Part shown: positions 19,017 to 23,904 of the stretch, piece after piece
How the letters are laid out: every line of letters starts with the position of its first letter
How positions within the stretch are numbered: the first letter of the stretch is position 1
Source: Balneolaceae bacterium
GTDB taxonomy: Bacteria > Bacteroidota > Rhodothermia > Balneolales > Balneolaceae
Direction of reading: 5' to 3'
Length of the DNA: 64,000 nt
Assembly (NCBI GenBank): GCA_017643365.1
Contig: JAEPNO010000002.1
Location: forward strand, 157,849 to 221,848
Position numbers and translations under genes: made by a program
The notes under the pieces: generated by a model
What the model was told of the DNA's origin: nothing
The model's database searches: none
Seen by the model: the letters and a program-made list of their open reading frames with translations, nothing else

Positions 19017-19037
19017 ATCAATTCTTATCTTCTCACC

Positions 19038-19109
19038 GTGAATTCAACATTACATCATATCCCATCTATTCATCATGATCGCCATCACGGCCATCATCAC
19101 GTGCACTAA
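19038..19109 (+). CDS. hisL: His operon leader peptide (attenuator ORF)
   Basis: A 23-codon ORF from GTG (19038) to TAA (19107-19109). Ten codons are His: 19053, 19056, 19071, 19074, 19083, 19086, 19092, 19095, 19098 and 19104, including the run HHGHHHVH. It ends 71 bases before the hisG ATG. This matches the known his attenuation architecture, where ribosome stalling at His codons under starvation stops formation of a terminator. GTGAATTC at its start (19038-19045) is an exact reverse complement of GAATTCAC at 19131-19138 between the leader and hisG, and AATTC at 19108-19112 can pair with part of the same site, which gives mutually exclusive pairings. A T run follows at 19146-19150. The exact terminator fold is not resolved by eye. 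Confidence 0.85.
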   Translation: MNSTLHHIPSIHHDRHHGHHHVH

Positions 19110-19180
19110 TTCTACGCACTGTCGCCAAGCGAATTCACTTATAACCTTTTTCTACAACTCCTTTTTACTTACTTAATTTT
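19107..19180 (+). promoter_or_regulatory. hisL: Putative attenuator region between hisL and hisG
   Basis: GAATTCAC at 19131-19138 can pair with the leader start (19038-19045) or, more weakly, with AATTC overlapping the leader stop (19108-19112). A CCTTTTTC tract at 19144-19151 follows. Position and alternative pairing fit an attenuator, but no strong GC-rich terminator stem is obvious, so control could also work through Rho or translation. Confidence 0.5.
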
Positions 19181-20062
19181 ATGAACCGCACGAAAGATTC
19201 TTCGACTTCATTACGCATTGCTATTCAAAAAAGTGGCCGATTAACAGATAAAACCATCAATTTACTGCATGGTATTGGCATCGAATTCGATAACTATAAA
19301 CGTAATTTGATGGTAAAAACTCGCAATTTCGATGTTGAATTACTCCTACTTCGCGATGACGATATTCCTGAATATGTACAGGATGGAATTTGTGATTTAG
19401 GCTTTGTTGGCGCGAACGAAGTGTTCGAAAAAGATGCAGACGTTTCTGTTTTGCGTGGGTTAAATTATGGCCGGTGCCGGCTTTCAATTGCAGCCCCAAA
19501 AAACGGAGACCTACAAGTTGCCGAAGATTTCGAAGGCAAAACCATTGCAACCAGCTATCCTTTTTTAACAAACAAATTCTTTGAAGATCAAGGTGTTAAC
19601 GTTGATTTGGTTGAGATTTCGGGAGCTGTTGAAATAACCCCTCAGTTGGAAGTTGCCGATGCAATTTCCGATTTGGTTTCAACTGGTGGAACTTTAATAG
19701 CTAACGGCTTGCAAGAGTTATTCACGATTTTAGAGTCGGAGACGAAACTCATCCAAACCAACAAAGAACTTTCGCCGGGTAAGCAAAAACTGGTGGAAAA
19801 ATTTCTGGTTCGCATCGACGGTTATCAACAAGCGAAAAAGAGTCGCTACATAATGATGAACGCTCCTGAAGATAAAATTGAGCTCATCAAAGACATTATC
19901 CCATCCATGAAAAGCCCAACCATCGTTCCGTTGGCAAAAACTCAAATGGTAGCCATCCACACTGTAATTCCTTATGATAAATTTTGGCAGGTGATGGAAG
20001 AATTAAAAAGCGCCGGAGCCAGCGATATTGTTATGCTCCCGATTGAAAGCATGATTTTATAA
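19181..20062 (+). CDS. hisG: ATP phosphoribosyltransferase, long form
   Basis: First enzyme of histidine synthesis, joining ATP and PRPP. At 293 residues it is the long HisG form, with a C-terminal ACT-like regulatory domain (about 222-293, including [20 protein letters not shown]) that binds histidine for feedback inhibition, so no HisZ is required. The N-terminal catalytic part has [14 protein letters not shown]-type opening and [12 protein letters not shown]; the PRPP-binding loop is in [14 protein letters not shown] near 169. The ATG at 19181 opens the domain correctly. The TAA overlaps the hisD ATG by one base (TAATG), indicating coupling. Confidence 0.97.
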
Positions 20063-21354
20063 TGAAAACCTATTCGCTAAACGCATTAACCGATCAGCAG
20101 AAAACAAGCCTGCTTCAGCGCCCAAAGATGGATTTCGTTTCCATTTTCAACACGGTGCAACCCATTATTGATGACGTTGAAAGCCAAGGCGATGCCGCTG
20201 TGAAAGCATTTACAAAACGATTCGACAACGTTGAGTTGGATTCGATCACTGTACGTCCGTCTGACCTCGAAGTGAGTTTGTCGGATGAGTTGAAATCAGC
20301 CATTGATGTAGCTTTTGAGAACATTCAAAAATTTCACGAGGCGCAAACTCAGCCGATTCTTGAACTTGAAACAATGCCGGGAGTTCGATGCCGCAAAGTG
20401 ATGAAACCCATCGAGCGAGTTGGATTGTATGTGCCGGGCGGAACAGCCATTTTGCCATCCACCGCTATGATGTTGAGTATCCCCGCGATGATTGCCGGTT
20501 GCAAAACGGTGGTTTTGGCTACACCACCAAATGCGGAAGGCAAGGTGCCGGATGAAGTCGTTTATATCGCCCAAAAAGCAGGTGTGACCGACATCCTTTT
20601 AGCGGGCGGTGCACAGGCAATTGCTGCCATGGCGTTTGGGACGGAAACTGTGCCAAAAGTCGACAAAATTTTTGGTCCCGGTAACCAGTATGTGACGGCA
20701 GCCAAAATGATATTGCAAAACAGTGAAGCTCAAATCGCTATCGATATGCCTGCCGGTCCATCTGAAGTTTTGGTAATCGCTGATGAAGATGCCAATCCTG
20801 CTTATGTGGCCGCTGATTTACTTTCGCAGGCAGAACACGGCGCCGATAGCCAAGTGGTGTTAGTCTCGATTTCAGGGTTTGATTTGGTGGCGCTGAATCA
20901 GGAATTGGCGTCTCAACTCAGCCAGCTTCCTCGGAAAGAATTGGCCGCAAAAGCACTCGAAAACAGCTTCATCATTGAAGTTGATTCTATTGATGAAGCC
21001 ATTCAGTATTCTAATGAATACGCGCCGGAACACTTGATTATCAACATTAAAGATGCTGAATCGGTGTTGGATGATATTACCAATGCGGGATCGGTTTTCT
21101 TCGGTGAGTTTACTCCGGAAAGTATAGGAGATTACGCATCTGGTACTAATCACACGCTCCCGACTTATGGCTACGCGCGAATGTACAGCGGTGTGAATCT
21201 CAGCTCGTTTCAGAAATCCATCACCATGCAAACACTTACTGCCGAGGGATTGAAAGCACTTGGTCCGACTGTTGAAAAACTAGCTGCAGCTGAAGGTTTA
21301 GACGCCCATAAAAACGCAGTAACCCTGAGATTGAGGGATTTGGAAAATGAATAA
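20062..21354 (+). CDS. hisD: Histidinol dehydrogenase
   Basis: Zn-dependent enzyme that oxidises L-histidinol to histidine in two NAD-linked steps. The 430-residue protein is of standard length. Diagnostic parts are [17 protein letters not shown] near 124, [14 protein letters not shown] near 202, the zinc-site [13 protein letters not shown] near 255 and the active-site YAPEHLIIN near 320. It overlaps hisG by one base. A 99-base gap with a palindromic repeat separates it from hisC. Confidence 0.97.
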
Positions 21355-21453: not shown

Positions 21454-22518
21454 ATGAATTCAAACTTCGATATTAAAAAGCTAGTCCGACCGAATATTCT
21501 AGATTTGATGCCCTACCGTAGTGCTCGGGATGATTTCGATTCGGGAATTTTACTCGATGCCAACGAAAATGCATACGGTGCGCCTTTTGAAAATGATTTA
21601 GAGCTACATCGCTATCCGATGCCTTATCAAGAAAAACTGCGTGATTTGATTGCGGATTTCAGAGGTGTTGATGCCGCTAACATTTTTACTGGTGTGGGTA
21701 GCGATGAGGCTATCGATTTATTGTTTCGGATTTTCTGCGAACCGGGCTCCGACGAAGTTCTCATCACTCCACCAACCTACGGGATGTACAAAGTTTCGGC
21801 GGCTATAAATAATGTGGCAGTTAATCAGGTGCTTTTGACACCAGATTTTCAGCTTCACGTCGATGAGACTTTGCAAGCAGTTTCCGATCGTACTAAAATC
21901 ATTTTTCTGTGCTCGCCTAACAATCCCACCGGGAATAGCCTGAATCGTGAAGATATGATAGCGGTTGTTGAGCAATTCAATGGAATTGTGGTAGTGGATG
22001 AAGCGTACATCGACTTTAGTGTAGCAGAGAGTTTCGCAACATTGGTGAACGAGTATCCAAATTTGGTGGTGCTTCAAACTATGTCGAAGGCATTTGGACT
22101 GGCCGGAATCCGCTTGGGAATTGCCATCGCGAATCCTGCTATTATCGAGTTTATGATGAAAGTGAAAGCCCCATATAACGTGAATAAGCTCACTTCACAG
22201 GCTGCGATTCGAGGATATTCAAATATCCAAGCAATGAAACAAAATGTTGCTGAATTATTAACTGAGCGGGATCGAGTTATCGAAGAGCTTTCTGCGATCA
22301 ATGAAATTGAGCACATCTATCCTACCGATGCTAACTTTTTGATATTTCGAGTAAAGGAGGCTTTATCAGTGTACAAAAAACTAGCGGAAGCCGGTGTAAT
22401 CGTCCGCTTTCGTGGAAATGAACCGCATTGTGAAAATTGCTTGAGATTAACTATAGGAACAACTATCGAAAACAATACATTTCTCGAAGCCTTGAGAAAT
22501 GTGTTTCAATCCGATTGA
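21454..22518 (+). CDS. hisC: Histidinol-phosphate aminotransferase
   Basis: PLP enzyme converting imidazole acetol phosphate to histidinol phosphate. The 354-residue class-I/II aminotransferase has the family's LDANENAYGAP opening near residue 31, FTGVGSDEAIDLLFR near 77, CSPNNPTGN near 151 and the PLP Lys in TMSKAFGLAGIRLG near 209. The ATG at 21454 is preceded by a strong GGGGAGGT, supplied by the repeat element in front. Its 3' end overlaps the convergent doxX gene by 13 bases. Confidence 0.97.
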   Translation: MNSNFDIKKLVRPNILDLMPYRSARDDFDSGILLDANENAYGAPFENDLELHRYPMPYQEKLRDLIADFRGVDAANIFTGVGSDEAIDLLFRIFCEPGSDEVLITPPTYGMYKVSAAINNVAVNQVLLTPDFQLHVDETLQAVSDRTKIIFLCSPNNPTGNSLNREDMIAVVEQFNGIVVVDEAYIDFSVAESFATLVNEYPNLVVLQTMSKAFGLAGIRLGIAIANPAIIEFMMKVKAPYNVNKLTSQAAIRGYSNIQAMKQNVAELLTERDRVIEELSAINEIEHIYPTDANFLIFRVKEALSVYKKLAEAGVIVRFRGNEPHCENCLRLTIGTTIENNTFLEALRNVFQSD

Positions 22519-22913
22519 GCCACTAATTTTTCTCCAATGACAGGAATATTGCCCCGATTAGCCCACAATAGAATTGCGGATGAAATGGTAACAATTAGCG
22601 CCATCGCAAATAATGTACCACCGTCGTTTTGCACTTCAATTCCCAACACCGTTAAATGGCTCACGATGGCCCCTGCCATCACGCCTAAAGCTAACATTGC
22701 TCCCAGCCAGGTTGTGCGGGGAATCAGTAATAAAACGGAAGCAATAAGTTCTGCTAACCCGGATGCGTATCTCCCAAAAGGTTCTAGTCCTACGGTTTCG
22801 AAAATGTATATGCTTTCGGGTGCACCTGAAAATTTAAAGAATAATGTCTGTAGCATGATGAAAGCTGCAACAAGGCGCAATATCCAATAGAAAATGTGTA
22901 CTTTTGATTTCAT
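22506..22913 (-). CDS. DoxX family membrane protein on the opposite strand of the his cluster
   Basis: The open frame extends to 23045, but the protein most likely starts at the ATG at 22913, giving 135 residues with four hydrophobic helices. GLEPFGRYASGLAELIASVLLL is typical of DoxX proteins, which are small inner-membrane proteins often tied to thiol or quinone redox. The gene lies between hisC and hisB but points the other way, so it breaks the his cluster into two transcripts. Upstream of the ATG sits a small hairpin AAACTC-CC-GAGTTT (22915-22928). Confidence 0.8.
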   Translation of the reverse strand: MKSKVHIFYWILRLVAAFIMLQTLFFKFSGAPESIYIFETVGLEPFGRYASGLAELIASVLLLIPRTTWLGAMLALGVMAGAIVSHLTVLGIEVQNDGGTLFAMALIVTISSAILLWANRGNIPVIGEKLVAQSD

Positions 22914-23010
22914 AAAACTCCCGAGTTTGTTTTCCGAAAATGTAACTCGACTTATGATTCTTATAGTCACAAAAGAGTAACAAATCGAACACAGAACTAT
23001 CCACCAGCTC

Positions 23011-23904
23011 ATGAACATCTGGATCCATCCTGAAATTTTTACCAACTCGAATAATAAGTACTTACCAAAGGGCTTTGTCCATTTCTGTGCAACCTTAAAT
23101 GGCGAATCTATTCGGTTAAATTCGGAAACCGATTCGCTGCGGAAACGCCAAAATGCACAAATTGAATTGGAAGAACTATTCAGCGACTTTCAACCTGCAG
23201 ACAAAAACGGTTTAATCGAGTTTGATAAAAGCGAAGGCAAACTATTGTTTTGGGTTGGGGAAACCTGTGTTGCTTCTGGCTACGATTTTGCCGATTTGTT
23301 GGCATCTTATCAAACAGGAAAAGAGCGCACCGCAAGCATTGCCAGAACTACTAACGAGACCGATATTTCGATTGAGCTGAACCTGGATGGAACGGGTAAA
23401 AATGAAATTTCAACGGGATTGAATTTCTTCGATCACATGCTCGAGCAAATAGCTCGACATGGTTTTGTGGATCTGAATCTCCGTTGCGATGGCGATTTGC
23501 AAGTGGATGAACATCACACGATAGAAGATGTAGCAATTGCTCTTGGAGAATGCATAACCAGCGCTTTGGGCGACAAAAAAGGCATTGAACGTTACGCTTT
23601 TGTTCTGCCCATGGACGAAACGCAAGCTACCGTAGCCATGGATCTTTCCGGTCGACCTTACTTAGTTTTTGAAGGCGAATTCAATCGCGTGTACGTGGGA
23701 GATATGCCAACCGAAATGGTTAAACACTTTTTTTACAGTTTAGCGATGCATCTCAAAGCAACGCTGCATATCGAGTTTAAAGGCGATAACGATCACCATA
23801 AAATTGAAGCTATTTTTAAAGGCTTTGCTCGTGTGTTAAAAACTGCCGTGGAAAAGAATCCCCGCATCAAAAATATGATCCCAAGCTCGAAAGGAAGCCT
23901 TTAA
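23011..23904 (+). CDS. hisB: Imidazoleglycerol-phosphate dehydratase with an unrecognised N-terminal domain
   Basis: Residues 106-297 are a complete HisB dehydratase that dehydrates imidazole glycerol phosphate at a dimanganese site. It shows FFDHMLEQIARHG near 139, DEHHTIEDVAIALGE near 166 and DNDHHKIEAIFKGFARVL near 264. Residues 1-105 are extra: this region starts MNIWIHPEIF and contains a KLLFWVGETCVASGYDFADLL segment. It lacks the DxDGT motif of the HAD histidinol phosphatase fused to HisB in enterobacteria, so that activity must be encoded elsewhere. Any internal start would still leave an extension. The gene needs its own promoter in the 97-base divergent gap with doxX, and overlaps hisH by one base. 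Confidence 0.9.
   Translation: MNIWIHPEIFTNSNNKYLPKGFVHFCATLNGESIRLNSETDSLRKRQNAQIELEELFSDFQPADKNGLIEFDKSEGKLLFWVGETCVASGYDFADLLASYQTGKERTASIARTTNETDISIELNLDGTGKNEISTGLNFFDHMLEQIARHGFVDLNLRCDGDLQVDEHHTIEDVAIALGECITSALGDKKGIERYAFVLPMDETQATVAMDLSGRPYLVFEGEFNRVYVGDMPTEMVKHFFYSLAMHLKATLHIEFKGDNDHHKIEAIFKGFARVLKTAVEKNPRIKNMIPSSKGSL

Follow-up and report, generated by a model that had tools for sequence, protein, structure and literature searches.

Attenuation by a leader peptide is the textbook mode of his operon control. In the genome of a Balneolaceae bacterium, a short open reading frame (ORF) packed with histidine codons lies directly before hisG, and the question raised by this locus is by what mechanism its translation could govern the operon when the intrinsic terminator of a classical attenuator is missing from between the two.

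A Histidine-Rich Leader ORF Precedes hisG in Balneolaceae

The window, that is, the whole stretch of 64,000 nucleotides of DNA that was analyzed, belongs to a metagenome-assembled genome (MAG) of Balneolaceae, the nearest named records of which are Balneolaceae MAGs and Gracilimonas. The leader ORF and the first genes of the operon are located in the window as follows.

19038..19109, forward strand: His-rich leader ORF (GTG to TAA, 23 codons, ten His), with the first base of the GTG as the predicted transcription start
19181..20062, forward strand: hisG, ATP phosphoribosyltransferase (TIGR00070, E=5e-55)
20062..21354, forward strand: hisD, histidinol dehydrogenase (TIGR00069)
21454..22518, forward strand: hisC, histidinol-phosphate transaminase (TIGR01141)

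The leader ORF opens with the GTG at 19038, closes with the TAA at 19107-19109 and encodes MNSTLHHIPSIHHDRHHGHHHVH, a peptide that devotes ten of its 23 codons to His; a gap of 71 bases separates its stop from the start of hisG at 19181. These coordinates agree in full with the ORF described in the original prediction. Such a density of His is rare in the genome. In 458 kb searched in six frames (a total of 915,476 codons), at least 8 His per 18 codons were found in the leader ORF and at one other site only. The leader peptide has no match in Pfam, and an Rfam scan of the window and its relatives returned no family: RF00514 (His_leader) was unmatched even at E values up to 10, and the leader had no Rfam match to a T-box or other riboswitch.

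Downstream of the leader, the gene order is hisG, hisD, and hisC, then hisB and hisH. A DoxX-family ORF on the reverse strand (window 22506-23045) lies between hisC and hisB, where it splits the run of his genes and overlaps hisC at its end and hisB at its start. About 100 additional N-terminal residues of HisB (window 23011-23320) fall outside the match to the IGPD models.

The sample of DNA upstream of hisG comprised about 90 genomes at the level of family and order and about 40 at that of class and phylum. Nearly all Balneolaceae with a HisG of the window type had a His-rich ORF at the corresponding position, as did several other Balneolales and many Bacteroidota from outside the class. Among these leaders the His residues are kept, and length and non-His residues drift. 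Recurrence of the ORF in relatives had been put forward as a check when it was first described as a his operon leader peptide. That description is strongly supported, as almost every Balneolaceae genome examined has the ORF, as do numerous other Bacteroidota. Directly before the operon there is thus a leader ORF, conserved in relatives, with many regulatory codons, as is expected of an attenuator.

Some Balneolaceae encode a HisG that shares only 43-45% identity with the family type (L107-L109 in genomes G016, G022, and G006, and also G031). The three upstream regions of these divergent hisG genes that were read held no leader of the family kind. Divergent HisG without a leader suggests, as judged from the sequences, that hisG may have been replaced in these genomes.

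The position of the first His codon is nearly fixed. Of 63 leaders, 56 have His at codon 7, and codons 2-6 and 8 almost never encode it; the tie-break used for this count favored codon 7, although most leaders had only one candidate start. The surroundings of this single His codon are conserved as TACATA throughout the family (codons 6-8 of the leader, 19053-19061 of the window), possibly owing to codon context or an unrecognized RNA element.

Promoter Geometry and a Predicted Leaderless Start

Leaderless mRNAs are a small minority in Bacteroidota, and Shine-Dalgarno sequences are lacking in this phylum. The -7 box of Bacteroidota promoters is TANNTTTG, with transcription beginning 4-5 nt beyond it (Flavobacterium johnsoniae; PMC6847099). 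For each leader, the best-scoring box in the 140 nt before the leader stop was recorded with the start codon disregarded. A perfect box was present in 31 leaders, and in 27 of these it was positioned 4-5 nt before an in-frame ATG or GTG. Randomly placed boxes show this spacing in 2.1% of cases. Among ordinary genes of the window genome with a perfect box, which are mostly leadered, a spacing of 4 nt was observed in 2 of 21. The corresponding element in the window is the following.

19026..19033, forward strand: TATCTTCT, candidate -7 box for the Bacteroidota sigma factor, separated by 4 nt from the start codon of the leader (consensus and spacing from PMC6847099)

The promoter geometry expected of a leaderless attenuator, with transcription starting at the start codon, is therefore present in these leaders, on a box that in the window itself is degenerate (4 of 6 consensus positions; the sister genome L002 has TATCTTTG). 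Given a box-to-start spacing of 4-5 nt, transcription should begin at the leader start codon, and the leader mRNA, with its 5' end placed by this geometry, most likely begins with that codon and is leaderless. It should be noted that only 21 nt separate the end of an upstream kinase gene from the leader. Some transcripts may therefore enter from upstream, and these would not be leaderless.

RNA Helices of the Leader

Three helices, termed P0, P1, and P2, were delineated in the leader region by folding and by strand covariation.

19038..19045, forward strand: 5' strand of P0, GTGAATTC, in the start codon region (folding and covariation)
19075..19083, forward strand: 5' arm of P1, ATGATcGCC, within the His codons
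19089..19097, forward strand: 3' arm of P1, GGCcATCAT (folding and covariation)
19101..19104, forward strand: 5' arm of P2, GTGC, just before the leader stop
19116..19119, forward strand: 3' arm of P2, GCAC, just after the leader stop, with the TAA in the loop
19131..19138, forward strand: 3' strand of P0, GAATTCAC, the exact reverse complement of the 5' strand, 21 nt beyond the leader stop

Folding of positions 19030-19200 with RNAfold, a check proposed along with the original prediction, gave -20.8 kcal/mol (z = -2.2) and a structure closed by the GTGAATTC/GAATTCAC helix. When members were folded singly, a common three-way shape was recovered in most of the genera g1, g6, g13, g17, and g18, in which P0 joins the start codon region to sequence past the stop, P1 lies in the His codons, and P2 spans the stop. 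A MAFFT alignment was tried for the RNA structure and rejected. It misaligned the strands of P0 and P1, and strand-swap tests were therefore adopted, in which 3' strands are exchanged between members without alignment and cognate pairings are compared with swapped ones. In these tests, cognate P0 strands paired at -8.6 kcal/mol versus -5.9 kcal/mol for swapped strands across five genera (p<2e-5), and P1 (p<2e-5) and P2 (p=1e-4) were likewise supported, with the caveat that permutation p-values overstate independence as the sequences are related. Twelve 14-nt segments of the leader were compared in this way, and only the first, at the start codon, gave the P0 signal (the second, which overlaps it, had p=0.013). 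The strands of P0 pair as GTGAATTC/GAATTCAC in the window, as TGAAAAACA/TGTTTTTCA in L005, and as ACTTAGA/TCTAAGT in L004. In P1, synonymous changes of Gly and His codons track the opposite arm (GGC/GCC, GGA/TCC; CAT/GAT, CAC/GGT).

The interpretation first given to this locus is borne out in part. Its leader peptide stands, and the complementarity that it had noticed between the leader start and downstream sequence is a real helix, P0, that co-varies in five genera. Its additional pairing with AATTC at the leader stop is kept only in the window's genus and found no support, and the predicted leaderless start, P1, and P2 had been missed.

P0 was also considered as a family-wide element, and this was rejected, as the strand-swap test gave it no support in the genera g4+g8, g19, or g7. 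Either another structure forms at the 5' end in these leaders or P0 is not a universal switch. A local 5'-end helix inside the g4+g8 leader, considered as such an alternative, had no support (p=0.29). An RNA structure that is mutually exclusive with a stalled ribosome, with the 5' strand of P0 lying in the expected footprint, is thus seen in five genera only. Further, strong hairpins of other kinds, lacking a U-tract, surround or closely follow the leader stop in the genera g7 (L016, L066, L071) and g5 (L010, L014, L037). These hairpins differ, indicating that the RNA part has diverged and the leaderless His leader has been retained; the -7 box geometry is clear in g7 and weaker in g5.

Absence of an Intrinsic Terminator

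The sequence between the leader and hisG, in which termination would be expected, has the following properties.

19110..19180, forward strand: leader-hisG spacer, G 7%, C 27%, T 42%, of rut-like composition and without an intrinsic terminator

A scan of 63 Balneolaceae leaders identified no intrinsic terminator between leader and hisG. The best hairpin directly before a U-tract had a median of -3.4 kcal/mol in these 63 leaders, and 27 of them, including that of the window, had no such hairpin. The lack of a strong terminator had been remarked on at the outset, and the hairpin and U-tract scan shows that remark to be correct; the accompanying suspicion of a non-textbook mechanism also held, in that a terminator/antiterminator switch was looked for and is absent. 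As controls, good intrinsic terminators were found at some gene ends of the window genome, and strong hairpins before U-tracts were found in the trpE leaders of 18 Balneolaceae, the window genome included. The lack of a terminator is therefore specific to the his leader. The His leaders of other Bacteroidota mostly show hairpins of -12 to -23 kcal/mol, along with visible antiterminator-type complementarity. Classical terminator hairpins were recorded in the other-Bacteroidota His leaders L130-L136, L138, L140, L142, L145-L148, and L110; among the leaders of this kind that were scanned, none matched a his-leader family in Rfam.

A Rho-dependent attenuator would be expected to combine a rho gene with unstructured RNA that is rich in C and poor in G, and both are present: the spacer lies at the 2nd percentile of the window genome in C minus G, and Rho is encoded in the genome. 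Two Rho-like genes were detected, L170 (G000:C11) and L171 (G000:C7), one of which scores above the NCBIfam cut-off and the second of which is shorter (E=4e-126).

A Putative Mechanism and Its Alternatives

The leader ORF and its conservation, the leaderless geometry, P0, P1, and P2, and the lack of an intrinsic terminator are well supported as predictions from sequence. We consider the chances somewhat better than even that the leader is a ribosome-mediated, histidine-responsive his attenuator in a form specific to Balneolaceae. In such an attenuator, transcription would start at the leader's start codon and the first ribosome would load on the bare 5' end. Were charged His-tRNA scarce, this ribosome would stall when the first His codon (codon 6-7) enters its A site. 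With codon 7 in the A site, nucleotides 16-18 would occupy the P site, and a footprint of the usual size would cover about nucleotides 1-30. The stalled ribosome would then cover the whole 5' strand of P0 and stop short of P1, and, with P0 blocked in this way, RNA polymerase would proceed into hisG. Were histidine ample, the ribosome would traverse the His codons, melting P1, and exit at the TAA; until then, P1 may hold RNA polymerase back. The freed 5' end would pair with the sequence past the stop, yielding a closed three-way junction of P0, P1, and P2 that would also hide the leader start codon, and transcription would be lost before hisG. P0 may also simply keep a second ribosome from loading. 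Because a stalled ribosome would cover the 5' end and a ribosome at the stop would free it, stalling and P0 should be mutually exclusive. From this exclusion we infer the logic of an attenuator in which the ribosome serves as antiterminator. The footprint, the stall at codon 7, the sensing of histidine, and the direction of control are likewise what we infer from the arrangement of the leader.

Since a hairpin followed by a U-tract is missing, the loss of transcription would most likely be Rho-dependent, over the G-poor, C-rich spacer; Rho as the termination step is our guess. Exposure of the spacer does not by itself account for the sign of the response, as a stall at codon 7 leaves the spacer equally naked. 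In a minimal attenuator without a terminator/antiterminator pair, a ribosome stalled at the fixed codon 7 of a leaderless mRNA would itself be the antiterminator, sitting on the 5' terminus and blocking pairing past its own stop, and the released state would be ended by Rho or another non-intrinsic step. This scheme taken as a whole is possible, though on balance doubtful.

Several other explanations would account for some of the same observations. Intrinsic attenuation by a weak terminator, in which P2 or P0 together with a conserved U-tract terminates and a stalled ribosome blocks termination, draws on the conserved CTTTTTCTAC tract that follows in many members, on the U-tract directly after P0 in L003, L053, L055, and L008, and on the TTTTC after P2 in L061. 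However, no hairpin abuts the U-tract in the window, where P0 and the U-tract are 8 nt apart, P2 has 4-6 pairs only, and in these genomes the trp leader provides an example of how a functional terminator looks. The distance from P0 to the U-tract varies, and pausing therefore fits better than intrinsic termination. A weak terminator is thus unlikely. The failure to find a terminator is also compatible with a switch in mRNA stability, in which a ribosome at codon 7 would cap the bare 5' end and shield the his mRNA from 5'-end-dependent decay; a stalled ribosome would indeed come to sit on the 5' terminus, given the leaderless geometry and a His codon fixed at position 7. Yet P0 would equally protect the 5' end at plentiful histidine, which is the wrong sign, making such a switch quite unlikely.

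Translational control, by a leader structure that hides or frees the hisG start, would accord with the tuning of Bacteroidota translation by mRNA structure (PMC6847099). This is very unlikely at hisG: in most members, the predicted folds leave roughly the last 40 nt upstream of its ATG without pairing, and 42 nt lie between the end of P0 and that ATG. Lastly, the peptide itself might act, for example by binding metals, as His-rich peptides can, or its richness in His might be due to chance. Both ideas are hardly credible: conservation is confined to the His residues and the codons involved in RNA pairing, whereas length and other residues drift, the leader is always found before hisG and is without a Pfam match, and conservation together with the genome-wide count excludes chance.

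Comparison With Known Leaders

The preferred reading, a ribosome-mediated attenuator in a Balneolaceae form, shares with the enterobacterial his attenuator (RF00514) a short His-packed ORF just before hisG in the same operon, and P1, in the His-codon region, resembles the enterobacterial pause hairpin. Unlike the enterobacterial system, the Balneolaceae leader is predicted to be leaderless, has neither an intrinsic terminator nor a terminator/antiterminator pair, has no Rfam match, and spreads its His codons across the ORF instead of grouping them in a single block. The his leaders of other Bacteroidota (e.g., the Flavobacteriaceae hisG 5' element; PMC9723704) similarly place a His-rich ORF before hisG, but these have a strong GC hairpin and U-tract, antiterminator-type complementarity, and no adjacent -7 box. 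In Flavobacterium psychrophilum, there are clues for his leader-peptide attenuation and a conserved hisG element that is absent from Rfam (PMC9723704). Translation of a leader decides Rho termination in speF orf34 (PMC6386406), mgtL, and tnaC, a likeness to the mechanism considered here. The difference is that Rho dependence in Balneolaceae is suggested by composition only. Mycobacterial polycysteine leaderless short ORFs reportedly repeat one amino acid and attenuate the downstream operon; they differ in phylum, amino acid, and RNA anatomy. For trpL of Sinorhizobium meliloti, the 5' end is not known to pair with sequence beyond the stop codon. As predicted for the Balneolaceae leader, the mRNA of this leader peptide starts at the start codon, but its regulatory codons are Trp codons and a short trpL RNA arises from transcription attenuation (PMC7298713).

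A literature search recovered no paper on a Balneolaceae his leader, and no description was found of the combination of a leaderless His leader, a fixed codon 7, a 5'-end helix, and no terminator. If the proposed attenuator is real, it would show that amino acid attenuation can act at the bare 5' terminus of an mRNA: a ribosome occupying the start codon region would take the place of the antiterminator, and the textbook hairpin and U-tract would not be needed. It would also represent a clear case in Bacteroidota in which leaderless initiation looks selected for regulation.

A scan of 458 kb for further leaderless, amino-acid-rich leaders yielded nothing convincing, and a targeted look at leuA revealed no leader there. 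Trp-rich leaders precede trpE in nearly all Balneolaceae looked at. In 18 Balneolaceae (L172-L190), a Trp-rich leader ORF that usually starts 5-7 nt past a -7 box precedes trpE, together with a strong intrinsic terminator, and by its sequence features the trpE leader is a near-leaderless, putatively classical trp attenuator. The same genomes would hence provide a built-in control, a trp leader with a classical terminator and a his leader without one. In the window genome, the trp leader (L185, G000:C47) encodes MQIIVLNETTWWWPVDNSTAGLLH and lies about 250 nt before trpE.
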